NCBI GenBank assembly: GCA_025617375.2
Contig: JAMYGW020000002.1
Span: 3,472,001-3,536,000 of the forward strand
Reading direction: 5' to 3'
DNA: 64,000 nucleotides
DNA from: Acarospora socialis
Lineage: Eukaryota > Ascomycota > Lecanoromycetes > Acarosporales > Acarosporaceae
Positions 1 through 53,810 of this stretch are shown here, one piece after another. Positions within the stretch are counted from its first letter, which is position 1. Each line of letters begins with the position of its first letter. A program made the translations under genes and the position numbers. The notes beneath the pieces are model-generated. The model was not told the origin of the DNA. It saw only the letters and a program-made list of their open reading frames with translations, and searched no databases.

Positions 1-2881
1 TTACTATATAAAGTAACAATGTTACAGAGTTAAGATCAATTTTGAATGACTGATGCAAATTTTTTAACATTACACTGCAGTACACTGTGCTCTATATGTT
101 TATTCAGAATGATGTTGCTGAAAAAGTCATTTATATCATTGAAAATTTAGTGCACATCATGATCAAAAAAACAAAACTTTCAATAAAGTTCTAAGTAAAA
201 ACAACACAAACAGATGTCTATTTTTGCAATTGAACAGTAACTGATTTCTTAATCAATGATAGATAAACAATTTTGAAGAAGATCTTCACTGATGTACAGT
301 TATTCATTGATTACATTTGTATCTGAAATTGTAAATACTACTTCTATATTGATCTCAAATTGTTGTCAAAGAATAAACAGAATAAGTTCATAAATTGAGA
401 ATGAATGAAAATTTTCATGAACTATGTAAATAAAATCACAAAACAGTATCTGCTTTGAATTTCAGATCTTAAGTGAATTATTAAAAGTTATGCTGTAAAG
501 TTTGTTGAGAATGAAAAGAAAGTCAGTGTTGATTTTAAACTGCAAAGATAAATACTGAATATTCTGTCTAAATAAAAATTAATTGAATAATCACAAAAAA
601 ATGCAGTTATCACAAATTCTGCAGCATTTACAACTTTGTTTATTATTTTTAAGTAAATTCACAGATTCAGATTCATAAGTTTAAATGATAAAGAAAAATT
701 TAAATTAACTGCAAACAATTTTGACACATTCTCATCAGACATTCATATGATGAATAAATTAACTGTAATCAACTTAAACAGATTACAGACAAGTGAATAA
801 AATGAGATTAAATAGTTTTTACATATTGAAGTTTCTGTCAATAAAGCACTGAATATTTTAACTGAGAGAGTCAAGACATTTTTGTGTGTTGAGATTTCAA
901 AGAGAAAATGAAATGATGATGATGAAGATTTCAACAAACTTATAATTAAGATATCATGAATTATACTGATATTCACAACATTCATTACAGATGATAAAAA
1001 AGATACTAAGAACATCAAATTTAACATTCTTATATCTGTTATTTATGCTGAAGCAGTGAAAGACTTAATTTAAGAAAAAATATAAAAAAATATTATTTAT
1101 GCAGAGTTAACAGTTCTGACAGTCAATGAAATATAAAAAGAAATTGTATCATCAAAGAATGCAAACATAATGATCAACAAGTGAATATTTAAACTCAAAC
1201 TGAATACTGATGAATTTTTGAACAAATTTAAGACAAAAGTTATGATGAGAGATTTTTCACAAATATATAGCATTGATTATGAGAACATCTTTACATCTAT
1301 AGTCAAGTTTAACACTCTTTGAGTTTTTCTTGTCATTGTTGTTCTTAAGAATCTTGAATATCATTAAATAAATATTAATAACATCTTCATGAAATTCTTT
1401 CTTAAAGAGATCATTTATATAATAATTTCTTTTAAAGTTCAAGTTGCATCTAACTGTGTACTGTATATACTGTGTAGTTTTTATGATCTGAAATAAGTTG
1501 CACAAAATTAACATAAGTGATGTATCACTAATCTATATAAATTAAATTTTCATTAAAATAATATTAATTTATATCTTCTCATTCACAGCATCAAAAGAAT
1601 TATGCTGCTTCTTTATGTAAATAATATAATTGTAGTTTCAGTAAATCTGATATATGTTCTCTGATTTAAGAAAGTTCTTGTGAAAATGTTTAAAATTAAG
1701 AATTTAAAGAAGACACAGAAAATTCTTAACATACAAATTACATGCAATCATAAAAGAAGAATTCTACATCTGAATCAGACTCATTATGTAAATAAGATGT
1801 TGAAAGATCTTCATATGTAATTTAATAAGCATAAGATCACAACAATTTCACTCAATAAATATAATGTTTTTCATTTCATCAGTTCAGCTAATTAAAGAAT
1901 AGATTAAAAACAGTATTAATATGCAATTGAAAGTCTGATGTATGCAGAAATTCATACTTAATTAAATATCATCTTTATTTTAAATCAATTAAATCAATAT
2001 CTTAGTGATTCTGCAGAGCATCATGAACATATATTTAAGAAACTGTTGCAATATGTGAGATCAATTATTAATTTTAACATTGTGTATGAATTCAGTGAAA
2101 GTTAAATCATACTTAAATACTTTAACTTCAATTATACATCAAATAAACAAGATCAGAAGTCAATTCTGAGACATGTGTATATATTTAAAGATAAATTAAT
2201 ATTATGAACAAGTCAAAAACAGAAATTTGTTATCATTTTAATCACAGAGACTGAATATATAATTATGTCAATATGTGCAAAGACTGAGATCTGACTTACA
2301 CAGATACTGTAAAACATGAATATGAATAAGTATTTTAAAGACAATTTATACTGTGTGAACATCAAGAAAAATAAAATTCATCAAACAATCTTATTTCTTC
2401 AGTTCAAGAAAAACAATCAGATTGTTTTGATTCTGATTAAGAATGTATATGTGTATGAATGATTAAAATATATTGACATTATTTATCATTATATTTATAA
2501 TCTGCACAAACAAAATCAGATTGATGTGAACTTCATGTTCAGTCAAAACATAATGATTAATGAATTAATCAAGTTTTTATTTAGATGAATCTTTAAGCAC
2601 TTTGTTGAACAACTGAAACTTGCTGTTAATAAAAGTCAATAGATGCAATGTTATCAAGTGAAAATGTTAAGAAGTGTGATGTTCTAGCTGTTTTCATAAT
2701 CTTAGTTGAGATTAATGTCAAAAGTTACTCATTATTTATATAGTCTGCATAACAGAGTATGTGAACAGATAATCTTTACAACTCATGTTAATCATGATTA
2801 AGTCAATGATATACATTTCACTAAATAGACAGTTAGTCAGCAGTATAGCACAAGTATTTTTTTTATCTTTCAATAAATTCA
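1..2881 (+). mobile_element. Copia-type LTR element fossil, left part outside window
   Basis: Fossil of a Ty1/Copia-type LTR retrotransposon on the plus strand. Recognisable pol remnants lie in Copia order: an integrase-like stretch near 100-190, a reverse transcriptase core of the YVDD class near 1600, and an RNase H-like stretch near 2210-2290, followed by the 3' LTR. Integrase ahead of reverse transcriptase separates Copia from Gypsy. The 5' part lies beyond the window start. It is heavily broken by RIP-like change and cannot code. Its body matches the element at 3029-8412 in inverted orientation. Age cannot be dated from divergence, because RIP-like change inflates it. Confidence 0.8.
2665..2881 (+). 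repeat. 3' LTR of first Copia fossil
   Basis: A stretch of about 217 bp beginning TGTTAAGAAGTG and ending near AATAAATTCA. It matches the two LTRs of the neighbouring inverted element at 3029-3244 and 8197-8412. It follows the RNase H-like remnant, as expected for a 3' LTR. Borders are good to a few bases. In the parts compared, differences among the three copies are almost all transitions. Confidence 0.75.
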
Positions 2882-3028
2882 ATACTTGCAAATCTTTTTT
2901 CTTTTTAGATAATTCAGATTGTACAAAATGATTTCTTCATCATCATAAAATTCATGTTACATTCTTAAAGATGTTGTGCATTCTACTGAATATCTTTCTG
3001 CTTAATACAAATACTGTTTTTATGATTG
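2882..3028. other. spacer between tail-to-tail LTR elements
   Basis: About 147 bp of AT-rich sequence separating the two facing 3' LTRs. It is not part of the inverted repeat formed by the two elements. It looks like the old target DNA between two independent insertions, also changed by the RIP-like process. Confidence 0.55.
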
Positions 3029-3244
3029 TGATATTTATTAAGAGATAAAAAATACTCATGCTATACTGCTGATTAACTGTCTATTTAGTGAAACATACAT
3101 CATTAACTTAACTATAATCAATGTAAATTGTAAAGATTGTCTGTTCACATACTCTGTCATGCAGACTATATGAATAATGAGTAACTTCTGATATTAGTTT
3201 CAACTAAAACTATGAAAGCAGTTAAAACACTGCACTTCTCAACA
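3029..3244 (-). repeat. 3' LTR of second Copia fossil
   Basis: About 216 bp. It is the reverse complement of the same LTR consensus as 2665-2881 and matches 8197-8412 over its full length. Ends are approximate. Confidence 0.75.
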
Positions 3245-6200
3245 CTTTTATTTGATGATGCTGCATCTATTGACTCTCACTAACAGTAAGTCTCAGTTAT
3301 TTAATAAAATACTTAAAGATTCATTTAAATAAAAACTTAATTAGTTCATCAGTCATCATGTCTTAACTGAATACAAAGTTCACATCAATCTGATTTTGTC
3401 TGTGCAAATTATGAATATGATAATAAATAATATTAATGTATTTTAATTATTCATGCACATATGTATTCTTAATCAGAATTAAAACAATCTGATTGTTTTT
3501 CTTGAACTGAAGAGATAAAACTGCTTGATGAACTTCATTTTTTTTAATATTTACACAGTATAAATTATTTTTAAAATACTTATTTATATTTATGTCTTGC
3601 AGCATCTGTGCAAGTCAAACTTCAGTTTTTGCACATATTGATATAATCATGTATTCAGTTTCTGTAATTAAGATGATAACAAACTTCTGTTTTTGACTTG
3701 TTTATGACATTGATTTGTTTTTAAGCATGTACACATATTTTAAAATTAACTTTCAATCTTGTTTGTCTGATGCATAATTAAAGTCAAAATATTTAAGCAT
3801 AATTTAACTTTCACTGAACTTGTACACAATGTTAAAATTAATAATTAATCTCACATATTGCAGCAGTTTCTTAAACACATATTTATAATGTTCTGTAAAA
3901 TCACTAAAATACTGATTTAGTTGATTTAAAGTAAAGATAATGTTTAATTAAGTATGAATTGCTGCATACATTAGACTTTCAATTGTATGTTGATACTGTT
4001 TTTAATTTATTCTTTAATCAGCTGAGTTGATGAAACAAAAAGTATCATATTTATTAAGTGAAATTGTTGTAATCTTATGCTTATTGAACTGCATATGAAG
4101 ATCTTTCAGCATTTTGTTTACATAATGAGTTTAATTTAAATGTAGAATTCTTTTCTTGTAGTTATGTGTGACTTATATGTCAAGAATTTTCTGTGTCTTC
4201 TTCAAATTCTTAATTTTGAACATTTTTATAAGAACTTTCTTGAATCAAAAAATATGTGTCAAACTTGCTGAAACTACAATCATATTATTCACATAGAAAA
4301 ACAGCATAATTCTTTTGATGCTGTTGATAAGAAGACATGAGTTAACATTATTTTAATGAAAATTTAATTTGTGCAAATCAGTGATACATTATTTATGTTA
4401 GTTTTGCACAACTTGCTTCAGATTATAAAAATTACACAATATACACAATATACAGTTAAATGCAATTTGAACTTCAGAAGAAATTGTTATATAGATGATC
4501 TTTTTAAGAAAGAATTTCATGAAAATATTGTTAACATTTATCTGATGACATTCAAGATTCTTAAGAACAACAATGACAAGAAAAACTCAAAGAGTGTTGA
4601 ACTTAACTGTAAATGTAAAAATGTTTTTATAATCAATATTATATATTTGTGAAAAATCTCTCATCATAACTTTTGTCTTAAACTTGTCAAGAAATTCATC
4701 AGTATTCAGCTTAAGTTTGAATATTCATTTGCTGATCATTATATTTATATTCTTTAATGACACAATCTTTTCTTATATTTCATTGACTGTCAGAATCATC
4801 AATTCTGCATGAATAACATTCTTTTACATCTTTTTTCAGACTGAGTTTCTCACTATTTCAGCATAGATAACAGATGTGAAAATGTTAGATCTGATGTTTT
4901 CAGTGTTTTTCTCATTATTTGTAATAAACATCATAAATATCAACATAACTCATGATATCTTGATCATGAACTCATCAAAGTCTTTATTGTTGTCATTTCA
5001 TTTTCTCTTCAAAATCTCAACACACAAAAATATTTTGACTCTCTCAGTTGAAATATTCAGTGCTTTGTTGACAGAAACTTCAATGTATAAAAACTGCTTA
5101 ATTTCATTTTGTTTATTTGTCTGTGATCTGTTTGAGTTGACTGTAATTGATTTATTCATTATATGAATATTTAATGAAAATGTATCAAAATTGTCTACAA
5201 TTAACTTAAACTCTTTTTTATCATCTGAACTCATGAATCTAAATCTGTAAATTTGTTCAGAAACAGTAGACAGAGTTGTAAATATTGTGAAATCTGTAAT
5301 AATTACATTTTTTCATAATCATTTAACTGATTTCTGTTCAAACAGAATGTTCAGTGTTTATCTTTACATTTTAAGATTAACACTATCTTTTTTCTCATTC
5401 TCAGCAAACTTTACAGCATAATTTTTAATGATTTACTTAAAATCTAAAATTCAAAGCAGATATTGTTTTGTGATTTTATCTGCATAATTCATGAAGACTT
5501 TCATTTATTCTTAATTTATAAACTTATTCTGTCTACTCTTCAGCAACAACTTAAGATCAATATAGAAGTAGTATTTGCAATCTTAAATACAAATGTAATT
5601 AATGAACAGCTGCACATCAGTGAAGATTTTCTTCAGAATTGTTTGTCTGCTGTTGATTAAGAAATTAATTATTGTTTAGTTGTAAAAATAAACATCTGTT
5701 TGCACTGTCTTCATTTTAAGTTTTTTTGAAAGTTTTGTCTTTTTAATCATAATGTGCACTGAATTCTCAGTGACATGAATAACTCTTTCAACAACATTAT
5801 TCTGAATAAACATATAAAACACAGTGTACTGCAGTGTAATGTCAAAAAATCTGCATTAATTATTCAGAATTGATCTTAACTCTGTGACATTATCACTTTA
5901 TACAGTAAGTACTTTTGCACTGATCTGAAACTCAACTCTTAATTATTATTTTTGCAGTTTCTGTAAAGCATTATTGCATTACTTTAACAGTATTGTTTAT
6001 GTCTTTCAAAAATAGTTGTTTACAATCTTCAGAAAGTACTGATGTTCAGTAAATGATAAAGATAAAAAATTACATATATTAATGAAAATCAGAACAAAAA
6101 TGTTGATTTTTTTTTTATTTACATTGTGTTTTTGCTGATTGACAAACTTAATAAAAACACAAACTTCACAGATGTTCTTCTTGTCTTCAGTAATGAGAAT

Positions 6201-8196
6201 TGATTTCTTAAGAATTATAATTTTGTAAAGATCATGAAGTTTTGTAGAATTAAGATGAACAAATCATTGATGTTACAGTTTGTAGATCTTGATCTTTTCA
6301 CTTAAAAATGAAGTGTTAACAGAAAATGAAGTGTTAACAAAACTTAATGAGTCAGTTTACATCTGAGAGTTCATATCTGATACTGTGACTCAAAGAATTA
6401 TCTCTGAATTGAATAACATGTATATGACAGATAACAGAATGAATTTATTCAGTTCTTTTACAATGTATTTAATTATGTAGACACTGCTTTGCTTAAACAT
6501 TTTTATTATGATATTGTTATGTTTATTTTGCATATAAAGACTGTGCTGATCAAAGCTTTTCTGCAATTTCATTTTGCACATTTGCTTTCTCAATAAAAGA
6601 TTGACTTCTAGTTCAGATACATAAAGTGTTGAACTTAGATTTATAAAGTTTCTGAATTTATTCTGCATGACTGCAACTTCATAGTAGTGTGAGTATAAGT
6701 GTTTTTTCTCAACTTTGATTTGTTGATGTCATATGTATATTAAAAGATCACTAAAGAGTTAATGTTAATTAATTATGTATGTGAAGCATTCAGAGTCTGT
6801 AACTCATTCAAAGCTGAATATTTTACTGATAGTTTTCTTAAACAAAGTAACAATTTTATTGTCTTTCTCTGCATTAGACTCAGATGAGAATGAGTCACTG
6901 TTTTTTTTAATTTCAACATCAAAAGCTCTATGCTTTCTATTCTTGTGCTTGAATCTTATTTTATTTTTATGATGTGAATTGTCTGCAGACAACTTGTCTG
7001 ATTTTCTGACTGATTTAATTGTAATTAAAACAAATAACTTTCTTAACTTAACATTTTTGCAAGCAGCAGAAAGATATTCACAGTCTTAAATGTGATGAGA
7101 ACTGTAACAGAAAAAATATTTAATTAATTTATGCTGAGAAGAGTGATTATTGTCAGAGCTTAACAATCTTCAATAATGATGTTTCACATCATACTGATAT
7201 AAGTATATCAGATTTTTCTCTTTGTGTTGATCTGCTCACAAAACAGTTTCAACAGTTTTTAATTGTGTTTTTTTTTCTTGAAGCTTCTACAGATCTCTCT
7301 TGATGTTTAAGATGTTTTGAGTGTTGATTGTGTCATGAATCATCATGTAATTCTCAAATAATGTTTGAAGAAGTGTCTGAAATTATTGCTCAAACTTAAA
7401 TAAATCAGTCATATCAGACTGAGTTACAGCAATCTTTCTGTTCAGCTTACTGAAATATGTTTATATTTCATTAATAAATACATTTATCAACATTTTATAT
7501 TCAATAAACTTCATCAAATATTGTTTTTCAGTGATCTGCAGCTTCTTCTTGTATTTGAACTTTAAAACATTTCAAACATTCTTTATATTAATTTTATCTA
7601 TAATGTACTTCTGATTATCTGCATTGATATAGATGATGAGTCAGTATAAAGTTTTTGTGTCAGATTTCTAACTTTCAAAGTCAAAATTGCTAAGTAAAAA
7701 GAAGAAATCACTAACAGAAGTGTTAATCACTGAGATCTTGATGATATATTATAGATCTTTATCTATTAATCATTTTTTCATGAGAATAAATCATTGATTG
7801 CAGTTCTTGTGACTGAGAATTGAAATGAGTTGTTGTTTTATAAAAGAGTTGTTGAAATTCATAATGTAGCTTTTGATGACAGTTGACACATAATATAAAA
7901 AATGAATAAAATAAAGTATTAAGATGTACAGAAGAAGATAATGTAAATAAGAGAAAGAAGAAGTGTGTGTACTTGTTTACTCAATTGTTGAGCATCATAT
8001 TAAGTTGTCAGTAAGTCTTGTTTTGCTCAATCTTAAAGTCTCATATTGAGTGTTAAGAATGTCATTTTGCTCAATCTTTAAGTCTTATATTGATGATCAA
8101 GAGTGCTTGTTTTAATTTCATATTAAGCTGCTGAGACACTAGAACAGTATGCACTTTCTCTGAGAAGCTTCTTGCTAATTCAGACTCATAATTTAT

Positions 8197-8412
8197 TGAA
8201 TTTATTGAAAAATAAAAGAATACTCATGCTATACTGCTGACTAACTGTCTATTTAGTGAAATGTACACTGTTGACTTAATCATAATTGATGTGAATTATA
8301 AAGATTGTCTGTTCACATATTCTGTCATGCAGACTATATGAGTAATGAGCAATTTCTGATGTTAGTTTCAACTAAGACTATGAAAGCAGCTAGAACACTG
8401 CACTTCTTAATA
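8197..8412 (-). repeat. 5' LTR of second Copia fossil
   Basis: About 216 bp matching the LTRs at 2665-2881 and 3029-3244. The outer end is set from the shared start TGTTAAGAAGTG and is uncertain by about three bases. It marks the 5' end of the minus-strand element. Confidence 0.75.
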
Positions 8413-10377
8413 ACATTATTAATTCTCATTTCTCTGTCATTATTGATTTGAATGTTCTTTCTCTCAGTTATACAACTCAAAACTTTCTCTTCAGACATAA
8501 AGAAGATGCTTAATAAGTTGTAAATCACTGTGTACTTTAAACAACTCATGTTGTTAAAAATTGAAGAACTTATGCTGACATAACAGCTCTGAACAGTTGT
8601 ACAATTTCTTCATCAATGATTATCAACAGTTAAGCTTTTAAACATTGCACAATCATCATTCTTGCATGACAAAAGTTCTCATGAACTTCTGATGATGAAA
8701 AGAAGTTGAAAGAATTTGAATTATATAATAATTTGAATTCTGACATCATTGCAATTCATACAAACTTTTTTTAACTTAAATCTTTTGATATTGTACAGAA
8801 CAACACTGTACATTTTTGTTAAACAATCATTTTATTGATAATCTATTATCTTTTATACAAAATAACATTCTTTCAAAAATCAAACATTCTTCAGTTATAC
8901 AACATTTTTATGATTTCTTCTGTTTTGCAGTTGCATGAAATATTAAGACAGATTTAAAACATATTGAGAACAAAGTAATCATGAAGATTTTGAATGTCTT
9001 AATTTTATTGAGAGATTATTGCATCAAAACAAATCATATATACAAGTTATGATTGATTGCTCTTGTGAAGAATGAATTATATAATTGAAAGAGATCAAGA
9101 TAAAGAAAATTAATAAAGATACAAAGATAAAGATCAAGAAGAAAGAACAGAAAAAGAAGTTTTCTCAAAAAATTAAATTGAATGTTACTCAATTATTCAA
9201 CTCATCTTGAGTAAGTTGTACAATTTTATTTCTAAAATTCTCTATTAATCTCTATATCAGAAAGATACATTATTCAAGAATTAATTAATAATTTTAAAAA
9301 ACTTTACTGCTGCAGAGTTTGATGTTTCTTCAGATGATAGTTTGTTGATGTATTATATGAAAGTTAATGATTATAAGAAATGATTTGTGTACTTGTATTA
9401 AGAAATATATAGAATATTTATGTTAAAAACATATATTGTTGTCATCATTGACTGTGCAGACTGATTAGTTGAACAAGTTAACTGCAGTCAACTTAATCTA
9501 TTTGTACAATTCAGATTCTGATATTAAAATTAATTAAAACAATAAAAGTAGTTAAAACACTGCACTTCTTGACAGCTTGTTATCTTGTTGTATTAATATA
9601 TATTTATTTTCTATTTAAAATATTTGACTGATACTCAAATCATACAATTTAAATGTATTCAAATCATCTGCTTCTTCTGTTTCTTCTTTTTTTTTTTCTG
9701 ATTTTGTTAATTTTAATATTTACATTGTGATCATATCTGATCATGTGATCATATTAGTGACAATTATTGCAAATATTCTGAAAATTTTCTGATATAAAAA
9801 TACATTTCTATACATCATTAATATTATATGACTTAGATTTCAGAAAATAATACTCAAAATGAGTCATTCTCTCTATTACAGTCAGCACATTTCTTTTTGT
9901 TCTCTTTTTTACTAAAAAGATGTCAGTAATGTGTAATGTTGTATATTACTGTAGATTATATGAATCAGAACTATATAATAATTATTTCAATATATAAAGT
10001 TTGCTGCAGCATACTGATCATGATGTGATTTTTTTTTAATTACATTTTAATTTTCATTTCATCTTTTCACTTCTTCAGAATCTGTGTCTGAATATTGTTG
10101 AATTGAAATTCATTATTGTATATCTTTGTACAATCAGTTTTTCAGATCAGTCTTCATATTAAAAAGTATTTACTCTGTTTTTTTGTGCTTGCATTATATC
10201 ATTGATGATTGAGATAAAGATGATCATTGTTGTAGTTGATGAATTTGTTTGTACAATGATGAGAATGTTGATTATTTACTTATAGATCATGATTTCTTTA
10301 CTACAATCTATGACTACATGTTGTTAATGATGAATATTCATTAACACTTTGTGAAAATTCAAAAAAAATTTGATGTG
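8413..10377. other. AT-rich relic DNA between LTR element and amidase remnant
   Basis: About 2 kb of sequence with the same dinucleotide exclusion as the elements to its left. Apart from the LTR scrap at 9440-9573, no family can be named. Open frames are short and lack Gly, Pro and Trp. It ends abruptly inside the coding sequence of an amidase. Confidence 0.6.
9440..9573 (-). repeat. degenerate LTR scrap
   Basis: The stretch near 9500-9573 resembles the outer half of the Copia LTR and ends in the same terminal sequence as the three clear LTRs. Similarity fades toward 9440. It is probably a broken solo LTR or the end of a third insertion. Confidence 0.45.
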
Positions 10378-33087: not shown

Positions 33088-33093
33088 CATCAT

Positions 33094-33165
33094 CGACGCG
33101 GATGGGACTCGAACCCACAGTCTTTGCCACCGGAAAGCAACGCGTTACCATTACGCCACCGCGCC
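33094..33165 (-). tRNA. tRNA-Arg (anticodon CCG)
   Basis: A 72-nt cloverleaf without intron. Acceptor stem GGCGCGG pairs with CCGCGTC (one G-U). D-stem GCGT/ACGC. Anticodon stem TTGCT/GGCAA with loop TTCCGGT gives anticodon CCG (codon CGG, Arg). T-arm GTGGG-TTCGAGT-CCCAT. Discriminator G. The A-box (TGGCGTAATGG) and B-box (GGTTCGAGTCC) are intact. Confidence 0.95.
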
Positions 33166-33831
33166 ATGCATGAAAATTATAGGCTCTTATTTGTTTATAG
33201 ATATGTCATGATTTTTGATTAACTCGACCCCATTGCCATGTAGGAGTGGAAACGCCACTGGCGAGTCATACACTGAACATGATAATCTGAACGGTGGTGA
33301 GGTGAGTCCTGTTCATGGACGAGTCCGAATATGGGTGCCAGCTACGAAAACTGAACGAAGGGACGAGCAGAGTGTACGAAGAGGACTAGATGCCTGTACC
33401 TGTCGGAAGTTAGGGCTTGGCTGCTTGGTGGATGGTTGGCTAATTCGAGACTTCAGTATACTGTCGACTGGTACGAAGGCGCCTGTGTATGTCGTATTAT
33501 ATCATAATTGTTACTTCCACGGAGAAGTATTAGAGGCCTAGGAGTTACTAGTAGCTCTGTTCGTTTGATTTGGCGAATGGAGGAAGTGGAGTCCTCTTCA
33601 ATTCTATCACTTCTTGGACCCAGACTTGGACTCGGAAGACTTTGTCGTATTATTACCAAACTCCCGCACGATTCTTCGTCTGGTCTAAAGGAGTATTATA
33701 ATCTAGCGTTGCAATGCAATCTAGACTCCGGTGTACAAGCACCTCCAGCGAAATCCAAACTCCCCCTTTCCCAAATGATGCCGACGTGGTACATGGTGCA
33801 AGCTCTAATGTCCCCCTTTCACCCCGCTGAC
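33166..33831. other. intergenic region left of the ubiquitin protease
   Basis: About 0.67 kb. Contains the upstream side of tRNA-Arg and the 3' side of the protease gene. No domain-bearing frame is seen on the plus strand; the frame at 33508-34491 is a shadow of the protease. Confidence 0.45.
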
Positions 33832-49546: not shown

Positions 49547-49780
49547 GATGGTGGTGGAAGTTATCCTGAGAAAGCCACTGTAGAACCGTCTGTGATATCT
49601 TCTAATATCAGCATCCTAACTGCCGCCTCCACAGACTCAGAGACTGGATGGTTCTTTGAAAAGGCCTGTTTCTGTATCTAGTAGTCAACAAGACAAGATG
49701 TGTAAACAGGTTCGCTAAAGCACTGCATCTTTCAATAAGGTAATGATATTTATCATAATTGAGTATTAAGCTGATAACCC
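49547..49780. other. upstream region of GIY-YIG gene and tRNA-Pro
   Basis: Short divergent region. No further feature is seen. Confidence 0.45.
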
Positions 49781-49918
49781 GGCTGGATAGTTCAGTGGAA
49801 GAAGTGAGCGAAATATGAATTACCCTTTTCGAAATATTCTCTAATCATTAATCAGTTCTTGCTTTGGGTTCTCAATCTCATCTGTAAGAGGTCCTGGGTT
49901 CAAATCCCAGTTCAGCCC
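49781..49918 (+). tRNA. tRNA-Pro (anticodon TGG) with two insertions
   Basis: Acceptor GGCTGGA pairs fully with TTCAGCC (one G-U) and the discriminator is C, as in yeast tRNA-Pro. The T-arm is CTGGG-TTCAAAT-CCCAG. The anticodon stem CTTGC/GTAAG closes a loop with TTTGGG, giving TGG. A 14-nt intron (49869-49882) sits at the normal site after position 37. A second, 52-nt insertion (49804-49855) interrupts the D-arm between positions 24 and 25. Removing both gives a regular 72-nt cloverleaf with D-stem GTTC/GAAT. The A-box (TAGTTCAGTGG) and B-box (GGTTCAAATCC) are whole, and a T7 run follows. It may be live or a pseudogene. Confidence 0.75.
49804..49855 (+). other. 52-nt GT...AG insertion inside tRNA D-arm
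   Basis: Begins GTGAGC and ends ATCAG, with CTAAT upstream of the end, so it looks like a small spliceosomal intron. The flanking tRNA bases AAGAA and TTCTT are complementary. The insertion contains a direct repeat of CGAAATAT. Nuclear tRNA introns normally lie only after position 37. Confidence 0.7.
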
Positions 49919-49922
49919 GTTC

Positions 49923-49929
49923 TTTTTTT
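49923..49929 (+). terminator. Pol III terminator of tRNA-Pro
   Basis: Seven T residues starting five bases after the tRNA 3' end. Confidence 0.8.
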
Positions 49930-50292: not shown

Positions 50293-53200
50293 ATGGATCG
50301 CATCAAGTGTGATCTATATGGCATATGCTGTCTAGCTGTTCTAGCTTCATTCCCTCACTGTGTCTATGCTCAGCACTTTTGGGGTATGTTTTCAGAGTTC
50401 TTCTGAATCTTCGCGGAATCATCTCCTGTTTCATGGATTCAATTCCGCTGTATTATGGTGGGTATCGGCTGGTTCTAATCCTTGTTGTGAAATAGGGCAT
50501 TCATCTACTAATTCCTCAACTCAGTCTTCAGCGTTGACAAATGTGTCTACCCACCCTTTGACACAAGCGCCTGTCTCGGCATCTCCAACATCAACTTGTG
50601 TTGGCAACTGTCAGACATCTGTACCAGGATGCGATGTAAGAGGCCCTACCACGCAGACTGGTATAGTCACCATCACCGATATTGGTGGGAAGCTTGTCCC
50701 CGTTCCTTGTCCAGTCTACATCTCGCTGTGGAACGGTGTCCAGGCATCCAAAAACAACCAAACAGGGGCAAATGCCACAACTATCATTCCATCAAATGCC
50801 TGGTCTTCAACGGTGTACCCCCCATTCATCTTCGATCTCGAGTCTACGATGGTTGGGTCGTGTGATGTCTTTGGCGCGATCTGTCAGACTGGAACAATCG
50901 AGGCCAAGCTCAACCTCACCAGCACCGTATCCACGACTACAGTGGCCTGTTCGGATTACCTCAAAGCACAACGGGCCGCGGTAATAGAGACACGGGGAGC
51001 CCACTACATTGACCGGGACAAATATGCGATAGACTTCGGTCGTAGCCCGCAATGCTCCGCCTTTGTGGAACGCATTGCACGAAGCCGCGCTCTTGACGGC
51101 GCAACTAGGAGTTACTACGTTAACCCCAGCGAAACTCTTCTCAATTCAGCTTGGTATTCGTCTGTCAAGTTAGAGGACTACTCATTAGCAGGGTATACGT
51201 TGTCAGGTGGAACGCAAATACCACCGAAGCCCACGCCTCTGGCTGGATGCCCATCAAATGCGTCGGAACTCGATACGAACCTTTACCCTGGTGGGACTCA
51301 TCAGCACATCGGAGCTAGTCGGGATTGGGATTGCTGCGGATGGTGCAACCTTCATGTTCCTAAACTCCAGATCTTCTACTTCCCTGATGAGTCGGAAGTT
51401 GTTGGCTCGGGCCATAGTACGACCAATGCAACACGAACGAGGCCTGTGTTCAATGCGTCTGCCGCTCGGAAACGAGCTGATCCGTCACCGAACAAGCCAC
51501 CGGTGACTGCCGTCGTCAGTGGCTACACGTAGTATGTTAAGTTCCCCAGAAGCACTCCAGATCAAAGTGAATAACGCTTGATATTGTAGCACGTCGGGAT
51601 CAGTATACATAAGCATCAAAGGGGCCGCAAGCGTCACGGATTTCTGCGGGCCAGTCGGTCCTGTTTTCACCAATCCCATCATCCCTATAAAGGGCCAAAT
51701 CTCCACAGGTTCATACTCATACACACTTGGACAGCTCTGGCAAGGTGACTTGGGTCTGCCTGGAACAACCAAGGCCCTGAATTACGCAGATCTAGTAAAT
51801 CCGACGTGGGGCTTGTCTGACGAGTTCGAAACTGTGGAATACCGTTCGTATGCGAACAGCTTTTACACCCAGCGCGTGCGGACGATCGGGCCACCCTTCT
51901 ATCCAGTCGTTATCCCTCCGCCAGAGCTTTTTACCTTGGCATCGGAGTGGTCTGTATGCACGGCATTTGCTGGTTCGGAGGGACGGGGGGGAGCCTACTT
52001 TGGTTCTCCAATCACGTACGGCATCTTTGATCCCCCACATGCCTTGGTTCCAGCCAACAACCTCGATCCAGCCATCGATGGGGCCAATGGACCGCCACAA
52101 ATCGACACGACTCCATCGTTGAGCCCTGATCCTCTGTATTCACAGAATGCTCCTCAAACAGGAGCCGTCGGGACACCAAGTCAGCCTCCTGTAACGCGGC
52201 CTGCCGCACCTGTCCTGCAGCCAACAGCCCTGGAGGGTCAGCCACAGCCTTCTTCGCATGACTCAAAGCAACCATCCCCACAAGATCCACAGCGTCCTTC
52301 TCAAGGCGACCCTCACTCGCCCGGGCCAGGAAACTCCCCTGATCCAGGGAAGTGGCCTGATCCAGGAAACTCACCCGCTTCAGGAAATTCACCTGGGTCA
52401 GGAAACTCGCCTGGGTCAGGAAACTCGCCTGGGTCAGGAAACTCGCCTGGGTCAGGAAACTCGCCTGGATCAGGAAACTCGCCTGGATCAGGAAACTCAC
52501 CTGGATCAGGACACCCATCTGATCCAGGAAACTCACCTGTTTCAGAAAACCCTCCTAGTTCAGGTACTTTACCACGGCCTGTCTCAGTTGATCCATCAAA
52601 TCCTAATGGAGCCCCTCCGGAAACAGTTAGCAACGCACCAGCTGATAAACACCCAAACTTCCCAGACCTGGGTGGCATCATCTTCAGTGCATTCGGTGGT
52701 GGAGTGCCAGGGCAAAGCATATCAAAGACTACGATCCCACTGCCACCCCCTGGGCCAACCACTGCAATCATCTCGCCTGCCATTGGACACCCCATCACTG
52801 TGCTGAACCCCTCTGTCGTCGCTGTTGGAGGGCATGTTATTCTGGCGAACGGAGACCCTGCAACAGTTGATGGACAAGTGATATCACTTGATCCAACCGC
52901 AGGAATCATCGTCGAGTCGGTTCCAGGCGCCGCTGCACCGACAGCTGCGGCGGGAAATGCAGTACCCGTCGATCCTGGCAAGGTTGTAGTGGCCGGCTCT
53001 ACGCTCGCTCCCGGGGACCCAGCTATCACAGTGGGCGGCACACCTGTGACTCTGGCCCGCTCGGGTACCCTAGTGGTTGGCTCTTCTAGCATCGTCCTTT
53101 CCCCACCGCAAACACTTTCTCCTCTACAACCTCTAGAATTCTCTGTCGCAGGCGTTACCTTTTCGGCTGCTCCGTCCGCTACAGCAATCACTCTCGCCGG

Positions 53201-53810
53201 CACAACCATCACGCCCGGCGGTACGGCCGTTGTAATATCAGGAACCCCCGTCTCGCTCGCATCCTCGGGCGTCCTCGTGATCGGTACGTCGCGCAACCCT
53301 CTTACGGCGCCTGCCTCTCAACCTCAAGCATCAGTCTACTCGGTAGGCAGCCAATCCTTTATTGCGCCCGCCTCACAACCTCAAGCGTCAATCTACTCAG
53401 TAGGCGGCCAAACCTTTACTGCAAACCCTACCGCGATTCCGATAGCAGGAACAACCCTCAGACCAGGTGGACCAGCAATAACAGTCTCAGGAACCGTCAT
53501 CTCCCTCAAAGCAAGTGGGACCTTGGTAATTGGCAGCAGTAGCACAAGTATCCGTATGAGTACGGGCGGGAGCAGCAGCATGGCTCCAGTCTACACAGCT
53601 GGCGGGCAAGCCTCCACGATCACTAATTCTTCTGCCGTCTCGGTTGCCGCCACGACGCAGGTTGTTGGGGGGAGCAGCGTTGAGATTCCTGCGAGCTCTG
53701 GTGCGGTTGGGAGACCCTCTTCAGGAGGCTCAAAGGGGAGGAAAGGCCCGGTTCCACTCTGGCTGATGCTGGGGGTTTTGGTTTGTGGGAGTGGCGCGTT
53801 TTGCTTGTAA
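50293..53810 (+). CDS. large secreted repeat protein, probably cell-surface
   Basis: Three exons (50293-50383, 50496-51528, 51590-53810) give 1114 residues in one consistent frame. The start MDRIKCDLYGICCLAVLASF is a signal peptide ending near CVYAQ. A Ser/Thr/Cys-rich N-terminal part follows. Around 52318-52560 a hexapeptide close to PGSGNS is repeated about nine times or more (18-bp DNA unit). The C-terminal third has imperfect repeats of about 70 residues around TTLxPGGPAITVSGT and SLxxSGTLVIGSSS, seen in many fungal surface proteins. The C-terminus GPVPLWLMLGVLVCGSGAFC is hydrophobic, as a GPI signal or membrane anchor. Role is probably wall or adhesion. No enzyme domain was recognised. 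Confidence 0.8.
52318..52560. repeat. 18-bp coding minisatellite (PGSGNS)
   Basis: Tandem units close to TCAGGAAACTCGCCTGGG. Central copies are nearly identical and outer copies diverge (DPGNSP, ASGNSP). Length is a multiple of three per unit, so copy number can change without a frameshift. Confidence 0.9.

Follow-up and report, generated by a model that had tools for sequence, protein, structure and literature searches.

Introns of probable spliceosomal type in nuclear tRNA genes of Acarospora socialis

Within a stretch of 64,000 nucleotides (nt) of the genome of Acarospora socialis, which we refer to as the window in its full length, a gene for the proline transfer RNA (tRNA) with the anticodon UGG lies on the plus strand at 49781-49918 and carries two insertions, one of 52 nt between tRNA positions 24 and 25 and one of 14 nt in the anticodon loop. 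We put the chance at close to nine in ten that the 52-nt insert represents a spliceosomal intron of the U2 type within a tRNA gene transcribed by RNA polymerase III (Pol III). It is best explained as belonging to a set of at least 15 spliceosomal introns, spread over 12 or more of the nuclear tRNA genes of the fungus, and the survey described below confirmed a genome-wide class of interrupted tRNA genes and not one odd tRNA. The intron type is ordinary, and it is the class of host gene that is new. The window gene and the features that belong to it are laid out as follows:

49781-49803, plus strand: exon 1, with the 5' strand of the acceptor stem, the A box and the D arm up to position 24
49788-49798, plus strand: A box TAGTTCAGTGG, tRNA positions 8-19, uninterrupted (read from the sequence; box positions according to the available part of PMC3978253)
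49804-49855, plus strand: putative ectopic intron of 52 nt, GTGAGC...CTAATCATTAATCAG, at tRNA positions 24/25 (structure-only deletion test)
49804-49809, plus strand: predicted 5' splice site GTGAGC
49841-49845, plus strand: branch-site motif CTAAT, with the proposed branch A at 49844, 11 nt before the intron end
49853-49855, plus strand: predicted 3' splice site CAG
49856-49868, plus strand: exon 2, with the end of the D stem, the 5' strand of the anticodon stem and the anticodon TGG at 49865-49867
49869-49882, plus strand: canonical anticodon-loop intron of 14 nt after position 37, of the tRNA-endonuclease type (ARAGORN)
49883-49918, plus strand: exon 3, with the 3' strand of the anticodon stem, the variable loop, the T arm, the 3' strand of the acceptor stem and the discriminator C
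49897-49907, plus strand: B box GGTTCAAATCC, uninterrupted
49923-49929, plus strand: Pol III terminator T7
49747-49753, plus strand: TATA-like TATTTAT upstream, a candidate for a possible upstream Pol III element
33093-33166, minus strand: tRNA-Arg(CCG), the second tRNA found in the window, without interruption (internal control)

When both inserts were cut out, ARAGORN recognized a regular 72-nt tRNA-Pro(TGG) with no mismatch across all four stems, as an earlier note on this DNA had described, and the intact A and B boxes and the T7 terminator of that description are present. The ends of the 14-nt intron can slide by 1 nt. Scans of the whole window with ARAGORN and Rfam did not detect the gene, and ARAGORN, when run on the unspliced gene with introns allowed, returned a spurious tRNA-Gln. 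The 52-nt insert is located in the D stem. Its complementary flanks AAGAA and TTCTT, to which the earlier note had drawn attention, are indeed there, but they form no special motif and are tRNA exon sequence (the end of the D loop plus the D stem, and position 25 onward). On its own, the insert folded no better than shuffled sequence (z +0.57). Upstream TATA-like, AT-rich words were found with interrupted and uninterrupted tRNA genes alike.

The boundaries of the insert were determined without a splice-signal rule. Deletions of 40-100 nt were enumerated, with an optional anticodon-loop intron, and scored by tRNA structure and conserved bases, with no requirement for GT or AG. Among 1208 distinct deletions in the window gene, the 52-nt GT...AG insert was the single best, and a cruder structural scoring picked it as well. 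The extra insertion reported earlier has the coordinates and letters given for it and is the unique best structural deletion.

The genome searched comprised 31.1 Mb in 38 contigs (numbered with C; the window is part of C2). With a B-box pattern anchored on the terminator, 103 matches were obtained in comparison to 24 for the reversed control, with overlaps counted, and loci were taken among the matches listed; two relaxed B-box patterns gave 57 versus 20 and 86 versus 19. Eighty stretches were fetched and read with ARAGORN and by hand, and these together with the two tRNAs of the window contained 37 nuclear tRNA genes that could be read whole with good pairing. Ectopic inserts were present in 12 of the 37 genes, amounting to 15 introns at 12 positions, distributed as follows (loci numbered with L):

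Pro-UGG (window): one ectopic intron
Pro-AGG (L128): two ectopic introns
Thr-AGU (L131): one ectopic intron
Elongator Met (L137): one ectopic intron
Trp (L140): one ectopic intron
Lys-CUU (L107 and L090): one ectopic intron each
Arg-ACG (L085): two ectopic introns
Leu-AAG (L095 and L097): two ectopic introns in L095, one in L097
Ser-AGA (L089 and L143): one ectopic intron each

The interrupted genes and L071 were given their anticodon names manually; ARAGORN misnames or misses most of them. On one scale, the 12 spliced genes reached pairing scores of 40-46 versus 40-47 for the 25 uninterrupted genes. The acceptor stem was free of mismatches in all 12 and the D stem had at most one, the remaining mismatches being one in the anticodon stem (Met) and one in the T stem (Trp). 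As Cys, Phe, Asn, Asp, Ile-AAU, Pro-CGG and further isotypes were not found among the tRNA genes read, the survey is incomplete.

Among the nine genes with a single intron, to which the structure-only test was applied, two (Pro of the window and Trp) had the adopted intron as the one best deletion and four had it tied for best (with 2, 3, 12 and 17 ties); it was the top GT-AG candidate in all nine. The Rfam tRNA model carries no knowledge of splice signals, and its alignment gaps can be set beside the adopted introns: the insertion in L090 agreed within 1-2 nt; the gaps in L140 and L107 opened at most one base from the adopted donor, but also took in the anticodon arm or loop; the gap in L131 spanned the loop and both introns; and that in L089 was 3-5 nt off.

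The intron-like ends GTGAGC, CTAAT and CAG noted earlier for the window insert turned out to be a signature in common with the fourteen other inserts elsewhere in the genome. All 15 introns begin with GT and finish with AG, and their lengths are 50, 51 (four introns), 52 (three), 53 (two), 54, 55, 56, 57 and 86 nt. Position +4 is an A in 12 of 15 and position +5 a G in 11, and position -3 is C or T in 13. Twelve of the 15 introns contain a CTRAY branch-site motif whose A lies 8-16 nt before the intron end, whereas 2000 end-preserving shuffles gave 1.04 on average and never more than 6; the looser YTNAY occurs in 15 of 15 (shuffle mean 4.29). As this motif played no part in delimiting the introns, the branch-site signal is independent. 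The insertion sites, numbered manually from the spliced forms, are 15/16, 16/17 (two introns), 18/19, 21/22, 24/25 (two), 28/29, 29/30, 30/31 (two), 32/33, 33/34, the variable loop and 53/54.

For comparison, we used three protein-gene introns, all in the window and each the most plausible join among those listed; two deubiquitinase introns were ambiguous and left out. They come from genes that we take to encode RNase H2A (82 nt, GTATCT, CTAAC with the A 17 nt from the end, TAG) and Pcf11 (125 nt, GTAAGT, CTGAC with the A 11 nt from the end, TAG), and from the gene of Rpn8 (55 nt, GTATGA, CTCAT, CAG). As far as these three can show, the tRNA-gene introns appear similar in length and signals. 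A recent mobile origin of the inserts was considered and rejected: BLAST found no match longer than 8 nt among the 15 introns, and the 12-mers of the window insert were absent elsewhere in the window.

The earlier note had left three readings side by side, namely an ectopic tRNA intron, a spliceosomal-type intron in a Pol III gene, and a disabling insertion. The second is strongly favored, because 14 further inserts in eleven other tRNA genes share the donor, branch site, acceptor and length, and the other two are unlikely. GT and AG ends and a branch motif near the 3' end, as expected of a U2-type intron, were all found in the window insert. A canonical eukaryotic tRNA intron lies at 37/38, after position 37; the window gene has one there, the separate 14-nt intron, whereas the 52-nt insert differs in its site at 24/25 and in its GT-AG ends.

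It was in principle possible that the inserts are ectopic tRNA introns like those of archaea or red algae, which the tRNA splicing endonuclease cuts at a bulge-helix-bulge (BHB). Such introns are known from archaea, nucleomorphs and Cyanidioschyzon merolae, where, according to the parts of PMC4090602 and PMC3978253 at hand, they occupy sites outside 37/38 and occur several per gene, as here, and archaeal insertion positions such as 30/31 and 53/54 recur in the present tRNA genes. However, when junctions were tabulated with a strict geometry (two 3-nt bulges, a 4-bp helix, and the cut after the second bulge base), the window junction formed only two of the four pairs, and the central helix was complete at one of the 15 junctions, there without inner-helix pairing. 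The window insert is moreover unstructured, and BHB introns would not be expected to have GT, CTRAY and AG signals and a length of 50-57 nt in common. BHB introns are defined by an RNA structure that the tRNA endonuclease cuts, whereas the present introns lack a strict BHB and instead have splice-site and branch-site sequences. Many nucleomorph tRNA introns, however, also lack a defined BHB (PMC3978253, in the part available). Overall, we regard removal through a BHB as improbable.

The insertion could also have disabled the locus, which would then be a pseudogene whose codons are covered by other tRNAs. An insertion in the D or T arm is usually taken as a sign that a eukaryotic tRNA gene is a pseudogene (PMC4090602, as far as its accessible text goes), and decayed tRNA copies do occur in this genome (L156 and L099). 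In addition, a tRNA-Pro(AGG) gene exists (L128), and its product could, as IGG, read CCU, CCC and CCA. Against this, the spliced Pro(UGG) has no stem mismatch, its boxes and terminator are undecayed, and stem pairing in the 12 interrupted genes is as good as in the 25 without interruption. Several intact tRNA-Pro(TGG) copies, which the earlier note had said would make the locus a pseudogene, were looked for and not found: a genome search with the spliced 72-mer gave tRNA-Pro(UGG) matches at the window locus only, and so did a pattern built for proline tRNAs that have a B box plus an anticodon-loop intron of medium length; both searches were heuristic, so that a diverged copy could be missed. 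The pattern also misses Pro(AGG), because the B box of that gene is split. Pro(AGG) itself carries two interruptions, and both tRNA-Pro genes found are therefore interrupted. Decoding of CCG requires a UGG or CGG anticodon, and an IGG tRNA cannot read it; the codon is in use, with 18 occurrences among the 56 proline codons of four reading-frame stretches (a few codons in one of these may belong to an intron). Decay would also not preserve donor, branch and acceptor motifs.

The same picture emerged for other isotypes. A 602-nt query made of eight spliced tRNAs gave 19 matches in the genome, namely the exon pieces of the seven interrupted query genes, two pieces of the second Leu gene, a tRNA-Lys(UUU) paralogue (78%) and L156. 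Neither this query nor the B-box searches found uninterrupted Trp(CCA), elongator Met, Thr(AGT), Lys(CTT), Leu(AAG) or Ser(AGA) genes in the genome, and the sole tRNA-Trp and elongator tRNA-Met genes found are interrupted. These two tRNAs have no substitute, and their introns must therefore be removed if the assembly is complete. Taken together, these points make a disabling insertion very unlikely.

Copies with differing introns were also found. The intronless, partly decayed tRNA-Arg(ACG) of L156 (L156:1489-1561; C13:727436) is identical to spliced L085 over 36 consecutive nt that cover both L085 junctions; it is either ancestral or was copied from a spliced tRNA. The two tRNA-Leu(AAG) genes L095 and L097, whose exons match at 90-95% in the pieces found, have a common D-loop intron site with unlike intron sequences of 51 and 86 nt, and the second intron of L095, in the anticodon stem, is absent from L097.

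A third splicing route was weighed as well, such as a nuclease specific to the lineage or degenerate self-splicing introns like those of lichen ribosomal DNA (rDNA). The 18S ribosomal RNA (rRNA) gene of the host (L158, C28:21750-22560; C18:107717-108124) has inserts of ~269 and ~231 nt in conserved regions, which resemble the degenerate rDNA introns of lichen fungi and gave no group I family match at the Rfam cut-off. For such introns, it has been argued that a specific splicing machinery evolved (PMC8527467, available in part). The tRNA inserts, however, bear all three spliceosomal signals, and the window insert is unstructured. With 50-57 nt in all but one case, they are also too short for a group I core. 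We give this route hardly any weight.

Spliceosomal removal is favored because it explains donor, branch site, acceptor and length together. Pol III would transcribe the whole tRNA-Pro gene, as we infer from the boxes and terminators. The spliceosome would recognize GTGAGC, the branch site CTAAT and CAG and remove the 52 nt, the tRNA endonuclease and a ligase would take out the 14-nt anticodon-loop intron, and the 72-nt tRNA-Pro(UGG) would then fold normally; we infer this order of the two splicing reactions.

Several observations weigh against the spliceosomal reading and have to be set beside these arguments. The evidence is the DNA sequence of one genome, in which 25 of the 37 tRNA genes have a canonical anticodon-loop intron at most. 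The 5S matches were contiguous over the gene in 23 of 26 cases and partial in three, and U6 is uninterrupted; introns are therefore not general in Pol III genes. The A box is split by four introns and the B box by one, a possible obstacle to TFIIIC. Strict CTRAY is missing from three of the 15 introns, and the tRNA-like locus L081 has an insert without GT-AG ends. In the structure-only test, the adopted intron was 1-2 points under the best deletion in three of the nine genes (Thr L131, Met L137 and Ser L143), the same three in which the earlier, cruder scoring favored other deletions, and the introns of the three two-intron genes were delimited by hand. As GT-AG served as one criterion in the choice among near-equal boundaries, the GT-AG ends are only partly independent evidence. 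The Rfam tRNA model scored above its cut-off for only five of ten interrupted genes (L131, L107, L089, L140 and L090), with no match to the window gene, L137, L097 or L085 and a partial match below the cut-off for L143. Finally, the genome searches were heuristic, and the eight-tRNA query overlooked three interrupted genes known from the other searches (L090, L128 and L143), so that a diverged uninterrupted copy could escape as well.

A number of loci were left out of the 37 genes: L099, L156, L081, L102/L145, L103/L144, L112, L114, the mitochondrion-like tRNAs and the stretches without a tRNA. L099 (C8:1711950-1712440, minus strand) was rejected as a tRNA gene owing to its Leu-like body with two acceptor mismatches and an odd anticodon; its loop reads CTTGGGA, corresponding to a UGG anticodon, and it is probably a decayed Leu copy. 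The tRNA-like L081:273-423 scored 49 bits with the Rfam tRNA model and has a self-complementary insert of ~79 nt near the anticodon; neither structure-only deletion nor one GT-AG removal gave a convincing tRNA. L102/L145 and L103/L144 have a T arm and a 3' acceptor strand with no matching 5' half found upstream, and are either pseudogenes or genes whose 5' half is hidden by an intron. L112 (C35:2018-2104) is a tRNA-Ser(GGA) gene whose CCA end is encoded; it lies on a contig of 17 kb and is probably bacterial contamination, and L114, a tRNA-Met at the end of C8, was taken as mitochondrial.

Ascomycetes, lichen-forming ones among them, have been described as having spliceosomal introns in their rDNA (Bhattacharya et al., 2000, cited in PMC8527467), and yeast removes rDNA spliceosomal introns from Pol I transcripts (both in the portion of PMC8527467 at hand). 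The present case resembles these in that a spliceosomal intron would reside in a gene for a structural RNA that Pol II does not transcribe; those introns are in Pol I rRNA genes, whereas here 12 of 37 Pol III tRNA genes are concerned, down to one T-arm intron. Our literature search, for which subscription journals and preprints were mostly out of reach, found no report of spliceosomal introns in tRNA genes among the titles and abstract openings listed. A pattern for exon 1 of the window gene matched one viral and 12 prokaryotic contigs in other sequence collections, and none of the 13 continued as a tRNA when judged by eye. We know of no tRNA gene with an intron of the messenger RNA (mRNA) type. 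Introns of the mRNA type do occur in the U6 small nuclear RNA genes of Schizosaccharomyces and Rhodosporidium, which are likewise Pol III genes with a spliceosomal intron. U6, unlike tRNA, is itself a part of the spliceosome, and in the present genome it was found uninterrupted.

The searches also revealed elements apart from the interrupted genes. A tRNA-like Pol III unit recurs in L133 (C2:3139219-3140130), L129, L136 and L138, three times in tandem in L133. It consists of a TATA-like stretch upstream, an A-box-like TGGCTCAGTGG, a B box GAGTTCGANCC and a T5 terminator; similar matches lie on C1, C3, C6, C7 and C9, and the repeat is possibly a short interspersed nuclear element or a new small RNA. 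At L110 and L130, tRNA-like B boxes lie directly downstream of what, judged by eye, are ends of Copia-type polyproteins. The contigs C15, C16, C33 and C38 are mitochondrion-like, with fungal-type tRNA clusters of differing tRNA order, and the tRNAs of C15 are present twice, ~131.06 kb apart, as expected of a head-to-tail dimer; the assembly may contain more than one fungus. Clusters of this fungal mitochondrial type and the two 18S inserts fit a host that is probably an ascomycete of the lichen type. In the window itself, ~10 kb at positions 1-10000 have 24-27% G+C versus ~50% in most of the remainder and may represent a centromere or a block of mutated repeats, and a long open frame at 51582-53810 (plus strand) encodes tandem GNSPGS repeats without a Pfam match.

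The splicing of tRNA and that of mRNA are taught as separate systems. It appears likely from these gene structures that in A. socialis the spliceosome acts as a second, essential tRNA-splicing machine: about one-third of the nuclear tRNA genes, including the sole Trp and elongator Met genes and both Pro genes found, would need the spliceosome to turn their Pol III transcript into a functional tRNA, genes with a cut A or B box included, and all protein synthesis would depend directly on the spliceosome. If true, the spliceosome is able to act on short, highly folded Pol III transcripts, and introns can colonize essential 72-nt RNAs at twelve positions. The interrupted internal promoters would be a natural test of what TFIIIC tolerates. 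As the tRNA finders used here missed or misnamed such genes, the tRNA sets of related fungi may be misannotated too. In lichens, slower growth and better tolerance of desiccation have been proposed as effects of ectopic rDNA introns (PMC8527467, in the part available to us); if our reading is true, this proposal would extend to the supply of tRNA.
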